Below, piece by piece: positions 13,391 to 48,179 of a stretch of DNA of 48,179 bases. Position 1 is the first letter of the stretch, and every line of letters begins with the position of its first letter. A program made the translations under genes and the position numbers. The stretch lies in the IMG/VR virus record IMGVR_UViG_3300045120_000249, positions 1-48,179 of that record; one strand, written 5' to 3'. The stretch comes from a virus. The notes beneath the pieces are model-generated. The model was not told the DNA's origin. It saw only the letters and a program-made list of their open reading frames with translations, and made no database searches.

Positions 13391-13631
13391 CGGCGAGCAT
13401 TTCGACGTGGCGGGCGTACTGGGTTACTTCGCCGGCCACCCAGCCGCTGGTGAACATGTTGCCGTTCATCCAATCAGCATGTAGGCGCATCAGCTTGGCG
13501 AGGGCTCTGAACTGCGCCTTGGTGGTCTTGGCGTTCTGGTACTTGGCGATCAACACCTTGCGCTTGGCGTCGTGAGCGGCGAACGACGCTTTGGCCTTAA
13601 CCTTGATCTCGTCCATCGGGTCTTCGGTCAT
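13380..13631 (-). CDS. Small protein of the integrase operon
   Basis: An 83-residue protein whose ATG overlaps the integrase stop (ATGA) and whose end overlaps the GIY-YIG start. It is helical and charged (KVKAKASFAAHDAKRKVLIAKY, then RALAKLMRLHADWMNG). No known motif. Tight overlap on both sides makes it part of the integration module; an accessory DNA-binding or recombination-directionality role is possible but unsupported. Confidence 0.6.
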   Translation of the reverse strand: MTEDPMDEIKVKAKASFAAHDAKRKVLIAKYQNAKTTKAQFRALAKLMRLHADWMNGNMFTSGWVAGEVTQYARHVEMLADDL

Positions 13632-14734
13632 TTCATTCTCCTTACAGGCAGGGTGACCACCTTTTCGACGTGCTTTTCGCCTGTCTCGAACGCTTCAAAC
13701 TTGGCGATCGCCGAGCGCGCGACGCTCAAGTCGCGGAGCACGTAACCGTCGAGCGACGAGCGCGCCGTGCCGCTCTCCAAACCATGCCCGGTGATGCTGG
13801 CGATTTCGATCGTGGTGCAGCCGGCGCGGCCCATGCGTGAGGCTCCGGTGCCGCGCAGGTCGTGGAAGGTGACCCCTCCACTGCGAGAATTCGCGACGCC
13901 GGCCTTGTGGCAAGTCTTCGCCCACATGACCCGGAAGCCGTCCTCCGACCACGGGATGCCAGACTGGTTGACGAGCATAATTGGGCTCTTGCGCGGCGTC
14001 GCGTCGAGCCGCTCTTTAAGCGGCCCCGCCACTGGCACCGTGACCTGGGCTCCGGTCTTGTTCTGGGTGAGCTTGATGACGTCACCGTCGTAGGCGCTCC
14101 AGGGAAGCTCCAGGAGGTCACCCTGACGCTGCAGGGTCCAGAACCCCAGCTCGAGCGCGAGGCCAATCTCGGGGCTCGCGTGGGCGCGGAAAGCGGCCAT
14201 CTGGGCGTCGGTCCAAACCTTGTCGCGGCGGTCGGTGGTGTAGAGCTTCTCGACGCCCTGATCGCGGCAAGGATTGGCCGGCAGCTTGCCGCGCTTCTTG
14301 CCCCAGTTCAGGACGATGTTGAAGAACACATAGGCATAGTCAGCCTGCCGCTTCGAGCGCTTGGCGAGGCCGTCGCGCCAGTCGAGGATCTCACCCCGGA
14401 CTTGGTCGGGCGTGTCCGCGAGCGCCGCGCCGGGGAGGTCGCCAAATGTCTCGACGACAACCTTGGCAAGCTTTCGGTAGTCCTCCTGCGTGCGGGGAGC
14501 CCGTCGCAGGAAGTCTTCGCTGTCGAGGTATTTGTCGACCGTCTCGCCGATCGTGGCAAAGCGCGAAGCAGCCGCCTGGGGCGCGTGGGCGGCGGGGGTG
14601 CGGACCTCCCGGAGCCGTTTGACCTCGGCGTCGAACGCCGCCGTCCCTTGCGGGGCGTTGACGCGGGGGCCGCCCCGCCAAGCGTAGGCATATTTTCCGA
14701 CGTAGTGGACGCCATCTCTATTTCGACTTCTCAC
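13628..14734 (-). CDS. int: Tyrosine site-specific integrase
   Basis: A 368-residue protein. I choose the GTG at 14734 because a GGAAGG ribosome site precedes it and residues further upstream are a shadow of the 75-residue gene. Domains: an N-terminal arm-type region (1-45), a SAM-like core-binding domain (about 60-155) and the catalytic domain. Catalytic residues are visible as Arg203 (LQRQGDLLEL), His291 and Arg294 (HDLRGTG), His317 (TGHGLE) and Tyr331 (DGYVLRD). It integrates the phage at a host tRNA-Gln gene, as judged from the attP at 12734. Confidence 0.92.
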   Translation of the reverse strand: MRSRNRDGVHYVGKYAYAWRGGPRVNAPQGTAAFDAEVKRLREVRTPAAHAPQAAASRFATIGETVDKYLDSEDFLRRAPRTQEDYRKLAKVVVETFGDLPGAALADTPDQVRGEILDWRDGLAKRSKRQADYAYVFFNIVLNWGKKRGKLPANPCRDQGVEKLYTTDRRDKVWTDAQMAAFRAHASPEIGLALELGFWTLQRQGDLLELPWSAYDGDVIKLTQNKTGAQVTVPVAGPLKERLDATPRKSPIMLVNQSGIPWSEDGFRVMWAKTCHKAGVANSRSGGVTFHDLRGTGASRMGRAGCTTIEIASITGHGLESGTARSSLDGYVLRDLSVARSAIAKFEAFETGEKHVEKVVTLPVRRMK

Positions 14735-14945
14735 GCTGTTTCGCCTTCCAAATCTCGTAGTCCGACGGCCCGGGGGGAACAGCGGACTTTTCCGTAAGAG
14801 TTGGAATATGGCCAACGGAGTTGGTTATTACAATGCTCCCTTCGGCATTAATTTCGACCTGGGAAACCTCGAGCCCGGCGGCCCTGGCGGCCCGCAGGGC
14901 GCGGGTCACATCGACCTGGCGGAACCTGGCAGGGCGAGGGCTCAT
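14718..14945 (-). CDS. Small integrase-linked DNA-binding-like protein (possible excisionase)
   Basis: A 75-residue basic protein (RFRQVDVTRALRAARAAGLE, then VEINAEGSIVI) of a type often found next to alphaproteobacterial prophage integrases: a helix followed by two strands. Its last 17 bases overlap the integrase start, so the two are translated together. Excisionase is a possible role, but the classical winged-helix signature is not evident. It starts one base from the stop of the previous membrane gene. Confidence 0.55.
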   Translation of the reverse strand: MSPRPARFRQVDVTRALRAARAAGLEVSQVEINAEGSIVITNSVGHIPTLTEKSAVPPGPSDYEIWKAKQREKSK

Positions 14946-17723: not shown

Positions 17724-18437
17724 TCAGACAGCGAACCTCGGGGTCTTGATACGCTTACGCAGACCCAAGAGGCCTAAAAGAGCGAACCCGCCGCCCATCA
17801 TCACCCACGTCGACGGCTCTGGAACCGCATTGACCGCGTTCATCGAGATACTTTGCACACCGACAAACGCATGCGGCTGGAGGGTCAGTTGCAGGCCTTC
17901 AGCCATCCCGTAGAGGCCGGTCACGGAGAACGGCACGTCCGGGCTATTAGCCGAGAAACTAAACGGCCCAGTCAGCAGCCCGCTGTCGAACGTCCCGCCG
18001 ATCTGGGTGCCGATCACCGGACCCGTGTTCACGCCGTTCAGCGCGTTGGTCGTGGACACGAAGAACTGCCCGGTCAGCTCTGCCTGTCCCGTGCCGATGA
18101 GGATCGTCGCCGACGCATTGAAGAAATTGTCGGGGCCGAGGAACCCGTTCGTCCCAGCAAGAATGTCCAGAGTCTGAACCGTCCCGGTGGTGTTGGTTAT
18201 GAACAGGTTGCTCTCGGTCATGCTGGGACCGGGCACGGTGTCCCGCGAAACGCCGCTGGTCGAGATTGTAATTCCGCCAAGGCTCGATCCGGAAATGACT
18301 GCCGAACCGGTGCCAGTGGCGGTCACTGCGCCGCCGGGGTTGGCGTTGTTCCATAGCGTTAGCGCCGAGTCGGCGGCCATCGCTGGGCTCATCCCGACAG
18401 CCCCCAGCAAAGCCGTTGTCAAAAGAAGTCTTCTCAT
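17724..18437 (-). CDS. Secreted PEP-CTERM surface protein
   Basis: A 237-residue protein. The ATG at 18437 is chosen because AAAGGGTGA precedes it and a signal peptide follows at once (MRRLLLTTALLGAVGMSPAMA). The middle is a beta-rich, Thr/Asn/Ser/Gly-rich domain. The last 33 residues are a PEP-CTERM signal: VPEPSTW, a hydrophobic helix (VMMGGGFALLGLLGL), then RKR. In bacteria this tail is processed by exosortase, placing the protein in the envelope or the exopolysaccharide. No exosortase gene is in the window, so the host would have to supply it. Probably a lysogenic conversion protein. Confidence 0.8.
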   Translation of the reverse strand: MRRLLLTTALLGAVGMSPAMAADSALTLWNNANPGGAVTATGTGSAVISGSSLGGITISTSGVSRDTVPGPSMTESNLFITNTTGTVQTLDILAGTNGFLGPDNFFNASATILIGTGQAELTGQFFVSTTNALNGVNTGPVIGTQIGGTFDSGLLTGPFSFSANSPDVPFSVTGLYGMAEGLQLTLQPHAFVGVQSISMNAVNAVPEPSTWVMMGGGFALLGLLGLRKRIKTPRFAV

Positions 18438-18478
18438 TTGCGTCACCCTTTCGTTCATGGCCGATGGAGTCGGCTCGC

Positions 18479-18805
18479 TCATTGGAAGCTGGCATCGCTG
18501 TCGGACCCGCCGTCAGGCCCAGCCATGCCACGCAGCAATTCGTAGACTTGGCGGGTAATCGTCGCGTCGGAGCGACTGCAGACGCGGCGGCCAAGCCGCA
18601 TGCGGTGGCGCGAGACAGTTTCGATCGCGTCCGCCAGCGCCCCATCGAGCAACCGCTGGCGCTCTTCCTCGGTCGGCTCAAGGCGCTTGAGCTGCGGCGC
18701 GGCGAGCGCAGCGGCGACCGCCTGGAGGCCCATCTCCTCGACCTCCTCCAGCGCCTCGATATTGGCGTTGCGCATCGCCTCGCGCAGGCTCGGCCTCTCG
18801 TTCAT
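18479..18805 (-). CDS. Hypothetical helical protein
   Basis: A 108-residue protein from the ATG at 18805, which overlaps the stop of the preceding gene; the frame continues upstream but only as shadow. It is helical and Arg/Glu/Ala-rich (SLREAMRNANIEALEEVEEM, then TEEERQRLLDGALADAIETV). Not recognised. The acidic Asp/Ser end is followed by a 41-base gap before the PEP-CTERM gene. Confidence 0.5.
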   Translation of the reverse strand: MNERPSLREAMRNANIEALEEVEEMGLQAVAAALAAPQLKRLEPTEEERQRLLDGALADAIETVSRHRMRLGRRVCSRSDATITRQVYELLRGMAGPDGGSDSDASFQ

Positions 18806-19080
18806 CGGTTGTCTCCCAGCATCGCCTTGAGCGTCTTGATCGCCTTTGCCCGCTCGGCGTCCTCGTCGATTGACGCAGGCGGCGCAGGGCGGCCTTCCTT
18901 GGGCGCGGGGGCTACTTCCGCCCGCAACTGCATCGATGGCCGTAGGCGGGCTTCCTGGGCCAGCCTGCTGGCGCATTTGGGCTGCGGCCACGGGTATGCC
19001 CAATGGCTGAACCGATGACATGCCTGCGCCGGGCCGGCGCCTAGGGCCATGAGCAGCGCGGCGGTGACCAGTGTCCTCAT
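18802..19080 (-). CDS. Small secreted protein
   Basis: A 92-residue protein with a strong signal peptide (MRTLVTAALLMALGAGPAQA). The mature part starts CHRFSHWAYPWPQPKC; a lipoprotein is not indicated because the residues before Cys do not form a lipobox. The remainder is basic and Pro-rich, with a helical C-terminus. ATG at 19080 overlaps the HNH stop. Function unknown; it adds to the secreted proteins carried by this operon. Confidence 0.6.
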   Translation of the reverse strand: MRTLVTAALLMALGAGPAQACHRFSHWAYPWPQPKCASRLAQEARLRPSMQLRAEVAPAPKEGRPAPPASIDEDAERAKAIKTLKAMLGDNR

Positions 19081-19466
19081 CGGAACCGCCTCATTATTTC
19101 CGGCATGCCCGCAGCGACCCGCAGCTGCGGTTTCTCTTTCTTCTTCGGCCCTGCGATCTCCGCCTTGCCGGGACGCTCGAGGCCAGCATGCCTGGCTGCG
19201 ACGCTCCGCACTTTGGCGCGCACTGAAGCTTCGTCGGATGTCTTGGCCCTATGCTCGTCGCTGAGGATCCACTGCAGATTGACTTCCGCATGCATTCCGC
19301 CATCGGCGATCGGAATCTTATGATCGAGATGCTTCTCGTTGCCGGGCACGAACTTGTGGCCGGTAATGGCGCACCGGCCGCCCTGCTTCTGGAGGATGCG
19401 CAGTTGAACCTGCAACGGGATTTTTGCGTCGTCGGTCGTGCCGACCCAGGGCGGGATCTTTCTCAT
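19077..19466 (-). CDS. HNH endonuclease
   Basis: A 129-residue protein with the HNH core GRCAITGHKF, then HLDHKIPIADGG and NLQWILSDEHRAKT, giving the Asp-His pair, the Asn and the final His. One CxxC of the common structural zinc site is absent. Its start overlaps the TGT-like gene (ATGA) and its stop overlaps the secreted-protein gene. Phage HNH enzymes of this size act in packaging or homing. TerL is far away, so a homing or early role is more likely. Confidence 0.75.
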   Translation of the reverse strand: MRKIPPWVGTTDDAKIPLQVQLRILQKQGGRCAITGHKFVPGNEKHLDHKIPIADGGMHAEVNLQWILSDEHRAKTSDEASVRAKVRSVAARHAGLERPGKAEIAGPKKKEKPQLRVAAGMPEIMRRFR

Positions 19467-20062
19467 GCCGCCTCCGGCAGCATTGGCGCGCGGTCTAAAT
19501 CATCCAACCATGCCAACAGCCTTGGTGTATTTGTGTTCGGGCCAAATCTCAGAAACGTCCCGTCTGCGGTATCGCAGCCGATCGCCGTAGCGGCGCGCAA
19601 CCTATCCAGCGAATTGACCCGCCCCATGTGGACGCTCTTTCCGCGCCTCTTGGCCGCATGGGCAGCCTCTCGACCGGCGCGGAACTTGAAGGCGGTCGAG
19701 CCTCCAATAAAAAGCACATCCAGCTCATCCCAAGGGGTCGACTGATCCTCCCATCCATCCTGGGCACAGAAGGCGGCCCGATAGCCCGCGTCACGAATGC
19801 GCCGCAGCATTGGGCCTGACCGCTTAATCGTCGCCACATGATTCCCAACGATGTCAGGAGCGGGGGCGAACAAAGCTGCGCGAGGGAGGCCGTCGAGAAA
19901 CCGCAAATAGTGGTCGTCCGAATACCCTCTCGGATTGCTGAAGCAACCATTGTCGGCCGCGAACGCGCACCCCTCCGGGGCGGCCTGACGAAGGTCCGGG
20001 GTAATCAAGAAGCCGAGCCGCGGATGCCGCATCGCGCCGATATGACCGCTGAGATAGATCAT
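19463..20062 (-). CDS. TGT-superfamily transglycosylase (DpdA-like), candidate 7-deazaguanine DNA modification enzyme
   Basis: A 199-residue protein with the signature order of tRNA-guanine transglycosylases in short form. AADNGCFS (Asp37) corresponds to the DSGGF active-site motif; LFIGGS (118-122) to the IGG loop; VHMGRVNSLDRLRAA (144-158) with IGCDTADGT (161-169) to the MGVG...GxDMFD motif, putting Asp167 at the nucleophile position. The bacterial TGT zinc cysteines are absent, as in phage DpdA-type proteins. The gene overlaps a VUT/YhhQ transporter for 7-deazaguanine precursors. Base exchange in phage DNA is the likely reaction; tRNA as a substrate cannot be excluded. Confidence 0.7.
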   Translation of the reverse strand: MIYLSGHIGAMRHPRLGFLITPDLRQAAPEGCAFAADNGCFSNPRGYSDDHYLRFLDGLPRAALFAPAPDIVGNHVATIKRSGPMLRRIRDAGYRAAFCAQDGWEDQSTPWDELDVLFIGGSTAFKFRAGREAAHAAKRRGKSVHMGRVNSLDRLRAATAIGCDTADGTFLRFGPNTNTPRLLAWLDDLDRAPMLPEAA

Positions 20063-20526
20063 GCGGTCACCCGCCGCGCCGAGAGGCCGCCCCAGACGAC
20101 GAGCGCCGCAACGAGCTTGCTGGCGATTTGGGCGCCTAGCGCCAGCGGCGAAAGCGCCCCGATGATGGAAAGGAAAACGACGCTATCTGCAGGCGCGCTC
20201 AAACCGCAACTCAGCAGTACCCGATCCGCCAATGGGCGCTTGGTGACAGTGAACACAAGCCAATCGACGCTTTCGGACACAGCAAACGCCGCGGCGCTTG
20301 CCAGTGCGACAAACGGCGACGCAAGTAGGTAGGAAAGCGCAAGGCCGACCGCCATCGGAACGACGACCCAATGGCCAATTGCGCGCTGACAGAAGTCTCG
20401 GGTGACGAAGATTGATCCGACCGCGATCGACCATAGCCAATTCAAGTCTGGTCGCCATGCAAAAGCGACATTGATGGCGAGGACGGAGAGGACATAAATG
20501 AGTGGCCAGAATAGTTTTTGCTTCAT
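20059..20526 (-). CDS. VUT/YhhQ-family transporter (queuosine precursor type)
   Basis: A 155-residue membrane protein, ATG at 20526 overlapping the NinB stop. About five hydrophobic spans. It carries the VUT_1 signatures: FVTRDFCQRAIGHW (40-53), then SESVDWLVFTVTKRPLADR (84-102) and SAPADSVVF (110-118). Bacterial YhhQ imports preQ0/preQ1. The phage copy is shorter than host YhhQ (about 220 residues), as VUT proteins of phages often are. Its stop overlaps the TGT-like start, so both are made together. Import of a deazaguanine base for the next gene's enzyme is the natural reading. Confidence 0.8.
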   Translation of the reverse strand: MKQKLFWPLIYVLSVLAINVAFAWRPDLNWLWSIAVGSIFVTRDFCQRAIGHWVVVPMAVGLALSYLLASPFVALASAAAFAVSESVDWLVFTVTKRPLADRVLLSCGLSAPADSVVFLSIIGALSPLALGAQIASKLVAALVVWGGLSARRVTA

Positions 20527-20915
20527 GCGGCCGCCTCGCTGTCCCGGAATGTGACGCCGTGCTCGGCCGCGAAGGCCGCGATCAGATCCAGCAGCAGGCC
20601 CATTTCCTCCTTCGACATGTCGGAGGTCCGCATGCCGAGAGGGACGTAGGTCCCCGGGTCTATCCCTGGCACGACGCGCGCCTTGCGCAGCGACGCGCTG
20701 AAGACATCTTTCCAATCCTCGGCGCTGAGCTTCTGCCCGTACCAGTCGACCTGCTGGGCGATTTCCGTCAGTCGCGCCCAGAGCAGGGAATTCTGGTCGA
20801 GGGTTCTGCGCGGGGCCTTGAACTCAATGCGGGTTCCTGCCGGGGCGGAGGCGACCCAGTTGACCGCCTTTGCGCGATCAGCATCGCGACGAAGGACCAG
20901 GAGGGCGCGGGTCAT
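20523..20915 (-). CDS. ninB: NinB-family recombination protein
   Basis: A 130-residue protein from the ATG at 20915. It shows the lambda NinB (Orf) pattern: RTLDQNSLLWARLTEIAQQV, WYGQKLSAEDWKDVF, LGMRTSDMSKEEMGLLLDLI. NinB proteins bind single-stranded DNA and assist recombination mediators. It sits in one operon with ERF and YqaJ genes, so the phage has its own recombination set. Both ends overlap neighbours by four bases. Confidence 0.8.
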   Translation of the reverse strand: MTRALLVLRRDADRAKAVNWVASAPAGTRIEFKAPRRTLDQNSLLWARLTEIAQQVDWYGQKLSAEDWKDVFSASLRKARVVPGIDPGTYVPLGMRTSDMSKEEMGLLLDLIAAFAAEHGVTFRDSEAAA

Positions 20916-21280
20916 GCGACGAACTCCGCCGGTGGCCGCGGGATTTCCCGACCGTCGTTCGGCCTCCACAAGTGCAGGCAATATGAGTGGATGCTGATGT
21001 GGTCTTTGGGCGGCAAATGCAATTGCATCGCCGTCTCATCGTCACGAAAAAACGTTCGCTTGACCAACTCCATTTCGCGCCAGTTGGGAGTGCGGTTGGG
21101 AAGGCTGATCGACACATGGTCCCAACCGCCGTCAGACGAGGCTATGCACTTGAGCGTCACGCCGGTCGCTGGCGATGGCGTCTCAAACACGCCGCAAGTT
21201 TCATCGCCAAACGAGCCGTAAAGCGCAAAGACATCGTCGGTGCGGACTCGGTAGCCATTCAGCGCGTCGAGGTTCTTCAC
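20912..21280 (-). CDS. DUF7694-type phage protein
   Basis: A 122-residue protein. The GTG at 21280 with GGAGG ahead is chosen over longer shadow starts. The segment WDHVSISLPNRTPNWREMELVK followed by FFRDDETAMQLHLPP and YCLHLWRP is a conserved pattern of small phage proteins found in recombination and replication regions. No catalytic motif is known. It overlaps both NinB and YqaJ genes. Confidence 0.6.
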   Translation of the reverse strand: MKNLDALNGYRVRTDDVFALYGSFGDETCGVFETPSPATGVTLKCIASSDGGWDHVSISLPNRTPNWREMELVKRTFFRDDETAMQLHLPPKDHISIHSYCLHLWRPNDGREIPRPPAEFVA

Positions 21281-21915
21281 GCCGCCTCCACCGGATAGCG
21301 CGCGTCGAGGGCCTTCAGCTTGTCCTCGAGTTCGGCGAGAAAGGCGCGGGCTTCGTCTTCCATGCTGGCGATGATGGCCTCGTCGCGCGTCACCCGTTTG
21401 ACGAAGAACTGCAGGCGGGGTTCGCGAAACCGTGGATCGACGCTGCAGAAATCCCACCACGCGCGCCCTGTGCACGCCATCGACCAATGGATTTGTGGCA
21501 GATGCTCCTCGGGGACGGCATCGTTGAGCAGCGTCTTCAAATGCGTTGCGCTGGTGGGTGCCTTGATCTCGACGCCGCCGTCATCGCCTACCAGCGCATC
21601 TGGCGACGCGTGAGCGTTAGGAATCGTCGGGTGCGGAACGAGGCCGACCTCGACCACCGGAAGATTGGTGAGGAAGCCATAGGTCGTCCGCGCCTCGGCT
21701 TCGTGATCGACGCCCCACTGCCTGGCGTTGACCTGCCTCGCAGGGATGCCGGTGAGCCTCTCAGCTGCGATCTCGTACATGAGATCCTCGGCGATCTTGG
21801 CCCGCTCGCCCTTCTTGAGGCGGGAGATAGCGTCGCGGATCTTTGACGCCCCGAGCGAGCCAGCCCGTCTAAGCAGCCATTCCGGGGAGCGCTGGACAAG
21901 CTCGGCGTCGTTCAT
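21277..21915 (-). CDS. YqaJ-type (lambda-exonuclease family) recombination nuclease
   Basis: A 212-residue protein. QRSPEWLLRRAGSLGAS near the start is the conserved first motif. ASPDALVGDDGGVEIKAP (about 102-119) has the Asp and Glu-x-Lys metal site of the PD-(D/E)XK fold, and HLPQIHWSMACTG gives the usual Gln helix. It digests the 5' strand at double-strand ends to make substrate for the annealing protein encoded just upstream. The length suits phage YqaJ proteins. Confidence 0.87.
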   Translation of the reverse strand: MNDAELVQRSPEWLLRRAGSLGASKIRDAISRLKKGERAKIAEDLMYEIAAERLTGIPARQVNARQWGVDHEAEARTTYGFLTNLPVVEVGLVPHPTIPNAHASPDALVGDDGGVEIKAPTSATHLKTLLNDAVPEEHLPQIHWSMACTGRAWWDFCSVDPRFREPRLQFFVKRVTRDEAIIASMEDEARAFLAELEDKLKALDARYPVEAA

Positions 21916-22637
21916 GGCGGCGCTATCCCCATGCGGCGCTTCTTCTCGTTGAGCAGGACGAGAGCCCGCTGATAGTGCTTGACGCTCATGTCGCTGAAGG
22001 TGCTCACGCCCAGCGTGTCGAAGAAGATTTCGAGATTGCTCTTGGTTTCGGTGAGGAGTTCCTGGACCTGGGCGAGCTGGCGGGTGTCGATCGGGATGTC
22101 GTCTTCGTCGTCCTCCTTGCCTTTGCCGGAAGCCGCGTTGCCGTCGTCGTCGTCATTTTCGCCAGCGATGCCGGTCAGCGCGAACAACGTGTAGCGGCGA
22201 GCGTAGGTGAGGGCCGAGCCGATCACCTGGGGTGGAGAAGGAAGCTTAACCACTGGCCATTCAGAGCCGATCCACTGCCCGGAGGCATGGGCGAGCGCAG
22301 TGCGAAGCATCAGCACATCAGCCTCCATGCGGGTCGTTTGCACGATGGCGATGGCGTTGGCGCTCAATGCCGTACGGACGGCCTTCAGCCCGGCGGACAA
22401 GTCCGCGTACGACGATTTGAAATGAGGATTGGTCGCCGTCTTGCCAGGGTTCGCCATCTGCCCTTGCGCCTTGGCGAGCGCGGCGCTGATGGCGTCGATC
22501 CTGTCGGAGCATTGCTCAAAGCCCCGCGGCGGATCGGTCGCCCCGGCGGACGACAATTGCGGCAGTCCATCCGCCGGGACTAGCGGGGCCGGATCGGGGG
22601 AAACGGCCGTCGCGTCTGAATAATGGGGGTCAGTCAT
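21912..22637 (-). CDS. ERF-family single-strand annealing protein
   Basis: A 241-residue protein from the ATG at 22637. Residues about 45-95 (AALAKAQGQMANPGKTATNP, FKSSYADLSAGLKAVR) are the ERF signature, followed by SEWPVVKLPSPPQVIGSALTYARRY. An acidic linker (about 165-185) separates a helical C-terminal part. ERF proteins anneal complementary strands, partnering the YqaJ nuclease encoded next. Starts four bases inside the zinc protein gene. Confidence 0.88.
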   Translation of the reverse strand: MTDPHYSDATAVSPDPAPLVPADGLPQLSSAGATDPPRGFEQCSDRIDAISAALAKAQGQMANPGKTATNPHFKSSYADLSAGLKAVRTALSANAIAIVQTTRMEADVLMLRTALAHASGQWIGSEWPVVKLPSPPQVIGSALTYARRYTLFALTGIAGENDDDDGNAASGKGKEDDEDDIPIDTRQLAQVQELLTETKSNLEIFFDTLGVSTFSDMSVKHYQRALVLLNEKKRRMGIAPP

Positions 22638-22858
22638 TGAAGCGCCTCCAGGCAGTCGGCGCAGACAGGGCCGCCCATAGGGGTGAGGCTTTCGGCGTGC
22701 TCGCATCCGCAGATCTGGCAGTTGAGGCCTTCTCCGTCGCAGATCTCGCACTTGCCGAGGAAGATGAGCGCCTGGCGGTCGCGGCGCATGAGGACCGCGT
22801 CCCCATCGACGCAAAAATGGCTCAGGATCTCAGCGGTGGGGGGCGGGCGGCCGGTCAC
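22634..22858 (-). CDS. Small zinc-ribbon protein
   Basis: A 74-residue protein with cysteine pairs CEICDGEG, CQICGCEH and CADC, a plan like the DnaJ zinc-finger or two small zinc knuckles. It probably binds zinc; partner unknown. It lies between a 69-residue protein and ERF with four-base overlaps. Confidence 0.6.
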   Translation of the reverse strand: MTGRPPPTAEILSHFCVDGDAVLMRRDRQALIFLGKCEICDGEGLNCQICGCEHAESLTPMGGPVCADCLEALQ

Positions 22859-47979: not shown

Positions 47980-48179
47980 TGGACTGGGTTTCGGCAAAGA
48001 TCGCCCTCGGTGGCGATGCGACGCAAATTATGTTCCGGGGCCCTGACCGCCCCATCTCCTGGCCGGAGGTCCTGGTCCTGCAGGCCCTCCACGGCGAGGC
48101 CAACGTCTTCGACGCTGACTGGGTCCGATCCGAGCCATCGAACATCCAGGAGGAAAAAATGCGCCTCCTGGGCCTCTAC
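47979..48179 (+). CDS. Second copy of the gene at 2-373, 3' end missing
   Basis: ATG at 47979 after GGAGGAG; 67 codons are present before the window ends. 60 of the 66 residues shared with the gene at position 2 are identical, the changes being conservative or at surface-like positions (E/D, V/I, S/R, F/W, N/M, I/L). It shows what the missing start of that gene is. Either a diverged paralog or the same locus from another strain. Confidence 0.8.
   Translation, partial: MDWVSAKIALGGDATQIMFRGPDRPISWPEVLVLQALHGEANVFDADWVRSEPSNIQEEKMRLLGLY
47981..48179. repeat. Right copy of the window-end similarity
   Basis: Counterpart of positions 1-199 (172 of 199 bases equal, no gaps). Confidence 0.85.

Follow-up and report, generated by a model that had tools for sequence, protein, structure and literature searches.

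The closest described systems are built around DpdA enzymes. Phage DpdA1 (CAjan, 9g and Sonali gp87; PHROG 887) is a TGT-type barrel of about 300 residues that is linked to folE–queDEC, and bacterial DpdA, of 413 residues, works with DpdB and often with a restriction operon. Transporters have been seen in both settings: about 9% of dpd islands are reported to be supplied by YhhQ (PMC11888242), and the preQ0 transporter of phages CAjan and EC151 sits inside a complete preQ0–DpdA1 cluster (PMC8310023). Hutinet et al. (2019) found phage YhhQ to be uncorrelated with any group and left open the base used by many phages with a lone DpdA (PMC6884629). Among such DpdA-only phages, 7-11 and MED16 contain a little dADG (PMC6884629, PMC8306585), and the DNA of Orion, in M. 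smegmatis, is unmodified (PMC6884629).

Here we analysed a 48,179-base IMG/VR virus record over its whole length (the window). The original prediction had described two overlapping ORFs, a YhhQ-type transporter and a TGT-like protein (TGTL), as a salvage cassette for modified DNA. Both ORFs and their 4-base ATGA overlap were borne out on the sequence, in the following setting.

20526-20059, minus strand: transporter ORF, ATG start, 155 amino acids, PHROG 4899
20062-19463, minus strand: TGTL ORF, ATG start, 199 amino acids, PHROG 15826
20059-20062, minus strand: ATGA in which the stop codon of the transporter overlaps the start codon of TGTL
20523..20981, minus strand: NinB/Orf recombination mediator, upstream neighbour (phrog_72, E 5.4e-31)
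19077..19466, minus strand: HNH endonuclease, downstream neighbour (phrog_333, E 3.9e-15)
21277-21915, minus strand: RecE-like exonuclease, in the same block as the pair
21912-22814, minus strand: Erf-like annealing protein, in the same block as the pair
13628..14815, minus strand: phage integrase (phrog_1, E 2.8e-35)

The minus-strand block thus reads Erf-like protein, RecE-like exonuclease, NinB, transporter, TGTL and HNH nuclease. The window encodes a terminase in addition to the integrase and recombination genes, and the integrase supports the temperate label given to the phage. Four-base junctions also occur between ninB and the transporter (20523-20526) and between TGTL and the HNH gene (19463-19466). 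Because the genes from NinB to HNH each share 4 bases, the overlap characterizes the operon and does not single out the pair; it is present where it was described, and we dropped it as evidence of pairing because every operon junction is alike. The predicted absence of de novo synthesis genes held: phmmer detected no FolE, QueE or DpdA1 in the window, with queries that did find such genes in other loci, and QueC and QueD were likewise missing from the window, one of 31 records searched whole. A PHROG 887 search of 31 records matched nothing, its controls included, and the phmmer result with DpdA1 queries was used in its place. The neighbourhood of TGTL in the window showed neither DpdB nor restriction-operon genes of the dpd type. 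The two ends of the record (1-199 and 47981-48179) are 86% identical, each coding for the beginning of one and the same protein; the record may represent a nearly complete genome, circular or with terminal redundancy, in which variants were joined. At 17724-18482, the phage carries a protein that looks secreted, with a PEP-CTERM-type tail (VPEPSTWVMMGGGFALLGLLGLRKR).

The transporter belongs to the VUT/QPTR family. It matches PHROG 4899 (E 1.5e-26), shares 40% identity with the 'putative preQ0 transporter' of CAjan and contains 21 of the 23 columns conserved above 80% in 80 VUT/QPTR sequences, the exceptions being one gap and one Y-to-F change. Its match to PF02592 (E 5.7e-5, 24.0 bits) lies under the Pfam cut-off of 27.2 bits, which the homologues in ReqiPine5, StevieRay and Aoka exceed (39–48 bits). 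The proposed VUT/YhhQ identity stands, by the PHROG match, the conserved core residues and the relatives above the cut-off; the Pfam search pointed to the expected family, with the window protein itself below the curated threshold. A scan of IMG/VR with the window transporter as a single sequence gave no matches, because exact peptide patterns are too strict. The protein is a predicted importer of a base of the preQ0, preQ1 or queuine type. The QPTR/YhhQ protein (PF02592) annotated as a preQ0 transporter in CAjan and EC151 is of the same family, but there it supplements biosynthesis genes, whereas in the window it stands in for them.

The TGT motifs that had been read in TGTL (ADNGCFS, IGGS, MGRVNSLDRL and CDTADGT) were all confirmed in the translated ORF. 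The coding status of the gene is certain because it has at least 565 relatives in IMG/VR and 58 loci in GTDB genomes. Neither the window protein nor any of the 121 distinct family members contains the CxCxxC zinc motif; the reported lack of TGT zinc cysteines extends to all of these members. TGTL had no match in Pfam or NCBIfam (none to PF01702 at E ≤ 10), and the only PHROG that it matched was 15826, of unknown function (E 7.9e-59). The known DpdA profiles, PHROG 887 and 7068, do not detect it, placing it outside DpdA1 as defined there. Sequence-based searches of the PDB, with TGTL singly and with its profile, returned nothing meaningful. By contrast, profile–profile alignment with hhalign paired TGTL and phage DpdA1 at E 8.2e-4, across 137 columns and with the motif order kept; DpdA1 and TGT gave E 1.2e-3 in the same test, which puts TGTL as close to DpdA1 as DpdA1 is to TGT. 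Against six canonical TGTs, the alignment fell short of significance (E 0.21), though the motif order was again kept. The suggested TGT/DpdA membership was thus silent at the level of PF01702 and PHROG 887/7068 and emerged in the profile–profile comparison with DpdA1.

Structure prediction pointed the same way. An AlphaFold (AF2) model built from a 58-sequence alignment (pLDDT 95.8, pTM 0.91) had as its top Foldseek match in the PDB the bacterial DpdA 7ui4, a DNA preQ0 insertase (E 3.6e-5, TMq 0.51); TGTs made up the majority of the 47 matches below E 1e-3. The anticipated TGT fold was recovered in this sense, with DpdA ranked first; TM-scores to DpdA and TGT are only about 0.5, and ribulose-phosphate epimerases interleave and score nearly as well. 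On its own, the modelled fold says TIM barrel, and the structural result alone is modest. Nine positions are invariant in the 121 distinct sequences (D37, D70, Q101, G121, H145, R148, N150, R154 and D167), three of which fall at recognizable motifs.

19952..19954, minus strand: D37 codon (ADNG), invariant in 121/121, at the position of the TGT DSGG aspartate
19628..19630, minus strand: H145 codon (VHMGRVN), invariant in 121/121, aligned with the KVHGFG histidine of phage DpdA1
19562..19564, minus strand: D167 codon (ADGT), invariant in 121/121, at the position of the TGT FDCV nucleophile aspartate

D167 aligns near the SCDSS of DpdA1 and over the MFD of TGT. The two candidate catalytic aspartates that the original prediction expected are present and invariant; it is the alignment, rather than a structural superposition, that puts D37 and D167 at the motif positions of DpdA1 and TGT. 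The literature describes a DpdA histidine, H196, that DpdA2 lacks (PMC6884629); H145 is a candidate counterpart.

TGTL and DpdA1 have in common the motif order DxGxF, xDxxGD, GG, VHxxG and D, and a link to preQ0 genes. They differ in length (about 200 against about 300 residues) and in company, TGTL being mostly paired with a transporter and DpdA1 with folE–queDEC. Bacterial DpdA, the closest solved structure to the TGTL model, is about twice as long and has partners of its own. Canonical bacterial TGT (PF01702) shares the barrel, both aspartate positions, the Q and the GG, but TGTL lacks the zinc site and any PF01702 score and is about half as long. We predict that TGTL is a compact, zinc-less transglycosylase for 7-deazaguanine. 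In its logic it resembles a DpdA system, and because it matches neither the PHROG of DpdA1 nor the zinc site and Pfam family of TGT, we file it provisionally as a separate compact DpdA-like subfamily, on the comparison with DpdA1, bacterial DpdA and TGT. The DpdA3 and DpdA4 subfamilies were reportedly defined in a 2023 paper.

By tblastn against annotated phages, proteins labelled 'DpdA-like tRNA-guanine transglycosylase' by SEA-PHAGES (in cluster P mycobacteriophages, Arthrobacter Sonali gp81 and Aoka gp40) belong to the TGTL family, at 47–53% identity. The VUT gene is the immediate upstream neighbour in StevieRay; in Aoka it is one gene removed. 'DpdA-like' is there an annotation name only, and the neighbouring transporter was left as 'hypothetical' or 'membrane protein'. 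In the literature searched we found no description of the TGTL–transporter pair, and an earlier one is possible. Other homologues carry varied annotations or are split: that of Erythrobacter phage ZS04 (H21) is a 'DarB-like antirestriction protein' in GenBank, that of phiG7 (gp20/gp21; L012:13244-13836) lies in two overlapping ORFs between DNA polymerase genes, a site at which CAjan has no TGTL, and that of SHIN8 is likewise in two pieces. CAjan was rejected as a natural test of TGTL: it has none between the processivity factor and the DNA polymerase, so its unmodified dpdA mutant is uninformative on this family.

The pairing recurs widely. We sampled 143 TGTL loci, of which the IMG/VR part comprised the best 80 of at least 565 relatives and the GTDB part 58 loci, and clustered them at 65% identity into 59 clusters. 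The 83 transporter matches in these loci are all on the strand of TGTL and no more than 1 kb from it, 79 of them no more than 400 nt away; the transporter is upstream in 67 loci and downstream in 15. A transporter is present in 29/59 clusters, and any preQ0 synthesis or transport gene in 34/59. When neighbours were clustered without prior choice of family, the transporter came first by a wide margin (33 clusters, with a looser net); as background, only 4/80 loci of phage DpdA1 have one within 4 kb. ReqiPine5, StevieRay and Aoka have the pair as well, their neighbour annotated as 'membrane' or 'hypothetical' being of the transporter family. It recurs, too, in genomes of actinobacteria and Chloroflexota and in many phages from the environment, and its phage carriers include those of unrelated bacteria. 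No proteins directly adjoining TGTL recur other than supply genes. DNA methyltransferases, found in 9 clusters, were judged weak as linked partners, being common in phages and at scattered distances, and an antisense 'family' beside TGTL proved to be a shadow of the transporter frame.

No 7-deazaguanine gene was nearby in 47/143 loci, including 37/58 from bacterial genomes. These are mostly on chromosomes of Streptomyces and relatives, and most of the hosts that were checked have neither VUT nor TGT. Examples of Streptomyces chromosomal TGTL genes with neither transporter nor Que genes are L115, L122, L123, L125–L128, L132, L138 and L150; host TGT is also absent there where checked.

Other members of the family replace the transporter by synthesis genes. 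In three loci (L077, L079 and L093), QueC–QueE–QueD lie directly upstream of TGTL with no transporter, and L022 carries QueE alone near TGTL. The transporter is combined with QueD or QueE in 0/59 clusters, and among the 31 records searched whole, QueC and QueD are confined to those that have these genes adjacent to TGTL. The two supply routes, transporter and QueD/QueE, exclude each other. For QueC only there is an exception, in L030–L032, which carry TGTL, QueC and the transporter together; in L030 (6001-7680) the three stand in a row without QueD or QueE, which would fit import of the QueC substrate. The functional pairing, which had been proposed from the overlap alone, is hence backed by recurrence, by both gene orders and by the exchange for QueC, QueE and QueD in other members. 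In five loci TGTL lies beside the DpdA1 pathway. One of them (L219:3-5520) lines up QueE–QueC–VUT–QueD–FolE–DpdA1–TGTL in succession, so that a single phage encodes two different transglycosylases; in such loci TGTL may serve as an additional enzyme for a different purpose, such as another base or site.

Some loci encode a small QueF-like protein beside TGTL or between the transporter and TGTL. QueF-L converts preQ0 in nucleic acid to archaeosine. Aoka gp39 and the L033 protein score above the cut-off of QueF PF14489, and the best solved match of their profile is the archaeosine synthase QueF-L 5jyx (E 1.8e-5). A second family, of 84 residues and with no Pfam match, has invariant C13-P14, E36, E54 and H74; its model (pLDDT 91.7) matched only QueF-L structures at E < 1e-3 (TM 0.79), and it is likely to be a miniature QueF-L absent from Pfam. 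Its pattern, CP...E...QE...H, was seen at L001:7743-7994 and in L019, L020, L021, L028, L067 and L073. Neither version was found in the window, and dPreQ0 is therefore the predicted product there. In two TGTL-carrying genomes, a strong QueC lies a few kilobases from a weak TGT-like protein of 440–530 residues (G002:C2:306113-309675 and G016:C60:193915-199334), possibly as part of bacterial dpd or 7-deazaguanine clusters.

The trees of the two window genes disagree. In its tree, the window TGTL groups with L017, L018 and L023, which have neither a transporter nor a QueF-like neighbour in the available DNA, and then with loci carrying QueF-L-like proteins or QueE. The window transporter groups with that of L002, in a clade that includes CAjan and other DpdA1-linked transporters. 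Because these trees differ, the pair was probably put together more than once, in line with selection for the combination.

The hosts provide a further perspective. A canonical TGT above the cut-off is missing from 16/18 host genomes with the pair and present in 14/14 control genomes; the host genomes are mostly drafts, in which absence of TGT is no proof. Where the host lacks TGT, importing the base would benefit no tRNA enzyme. Strong QueC occurs in 8/18 of these genomes, and in one host (G053) chromosomal VUT and TGT lie about 400 nt apart on opposite strands. The host of the window phage may synthesize preQ0 itself, so the salvage route is perhaps not closed.

We favour, at a probability of roughly 0.7, a reading in which the pair is a salvage-only cassette for 7-deazaguanine DNA modification. 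The VUT/QPTR protein would bring a free 7-deazaguanine, most likely preQ0 and possibly preQ1, into the infected cell, and TGTL would swap guanine for the imported base in the DNA of the phage itself; D37 and D167 are predicted to occupy the acid/base and nucleophile positions of TGT and DpdA. The product would be dPreQ0 in the window phage, and dG+ or similar in relatives with a QueF-like protein; the modified DNA would be shielded from restriction. The pathway logic of the pair is well supported; the DNA target, the exact base and the protection are inferred. The wider proposal, that a compact DpdA subfamily spans hundreds of phages with two mutually exclusive supplies (a phage transporter or QueC/E/D) and many hosts without the tRNA queuosine enzyme, we regard as evenly balanced.

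TGTL shares chemistry and superfamily with TGT, and could instead be a stripped-down tRNA-guanine transglycosylase that inserts the imported base into host or phage tRNA and alters decoding during infection. Bacterial VUT proteins normally supply tRNA TGT, and G053 has the chromosomal VUT and TGT genes close together. This is unlikely for an enzyme of only 199 residues with no zinc site and no PF01702 match, whose best structural match is a DNA enzyme, which carries a DpdA1-type histidine and which in some phages is grouped with DpdA1 and DNA polymerase. Somewhat less probable again is a remodelled TGT-fold protein in which 7-deazaguanine is bound or attached to a non-nucleic-acid target, for example in anti-defence or as a sensor. 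There is a precedent in the TGT-family protein Cap10, repurposed in type IV CBASS (PMC11996544), and the small size of TGTL and its many chromosomal copies with no visible supply gene would suit such a role. However, every catalytic position is invariant, unlike in a binding-only protein, the QueF-L-like partner fits nucleic-acid modification and only supply genes recur right beside TGTL.

The transporter might also be an auxiliary metabolic gene that raises host queuosine or preQ0, its place beside TGTL being incidental in a packed operon. The 4-base overlaps throughout the operon, the nearest TGTL relatives without VUT and the conflict between the window VUT and TGTL trees are compatible with this. 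We consider it the most improbable of these explanations: the pair recurs in about half of the clusters, in both orders and with no transporter match elsewhere in the loci, most of its hosts have no TGT that could benefit, and the tree conflict suggests repeated assembly of the pair, which speaks for selection. The salvage cassette remains our preferred reading.

In the loci collected here, the transporter correlates strictly with a single small family of transglycosylases. Phages of M. smegmatis and Arthrobacter that carry the pair have already been isolated and sequenced, which makes the question directly testable. If the salvage reading is true, phage DNA modification can hinge on a nutrient that the microbial community shares, and the restriction resistance of such phages would vary with the environment. 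On the wider proposal, the modification, which a small QueF-L sometimes takes further to archaeosine, would depend on a micronutrient from other microbes. Some phages may thus mask their DNA with a base gathered from their surroundings rather than one they make themselves.
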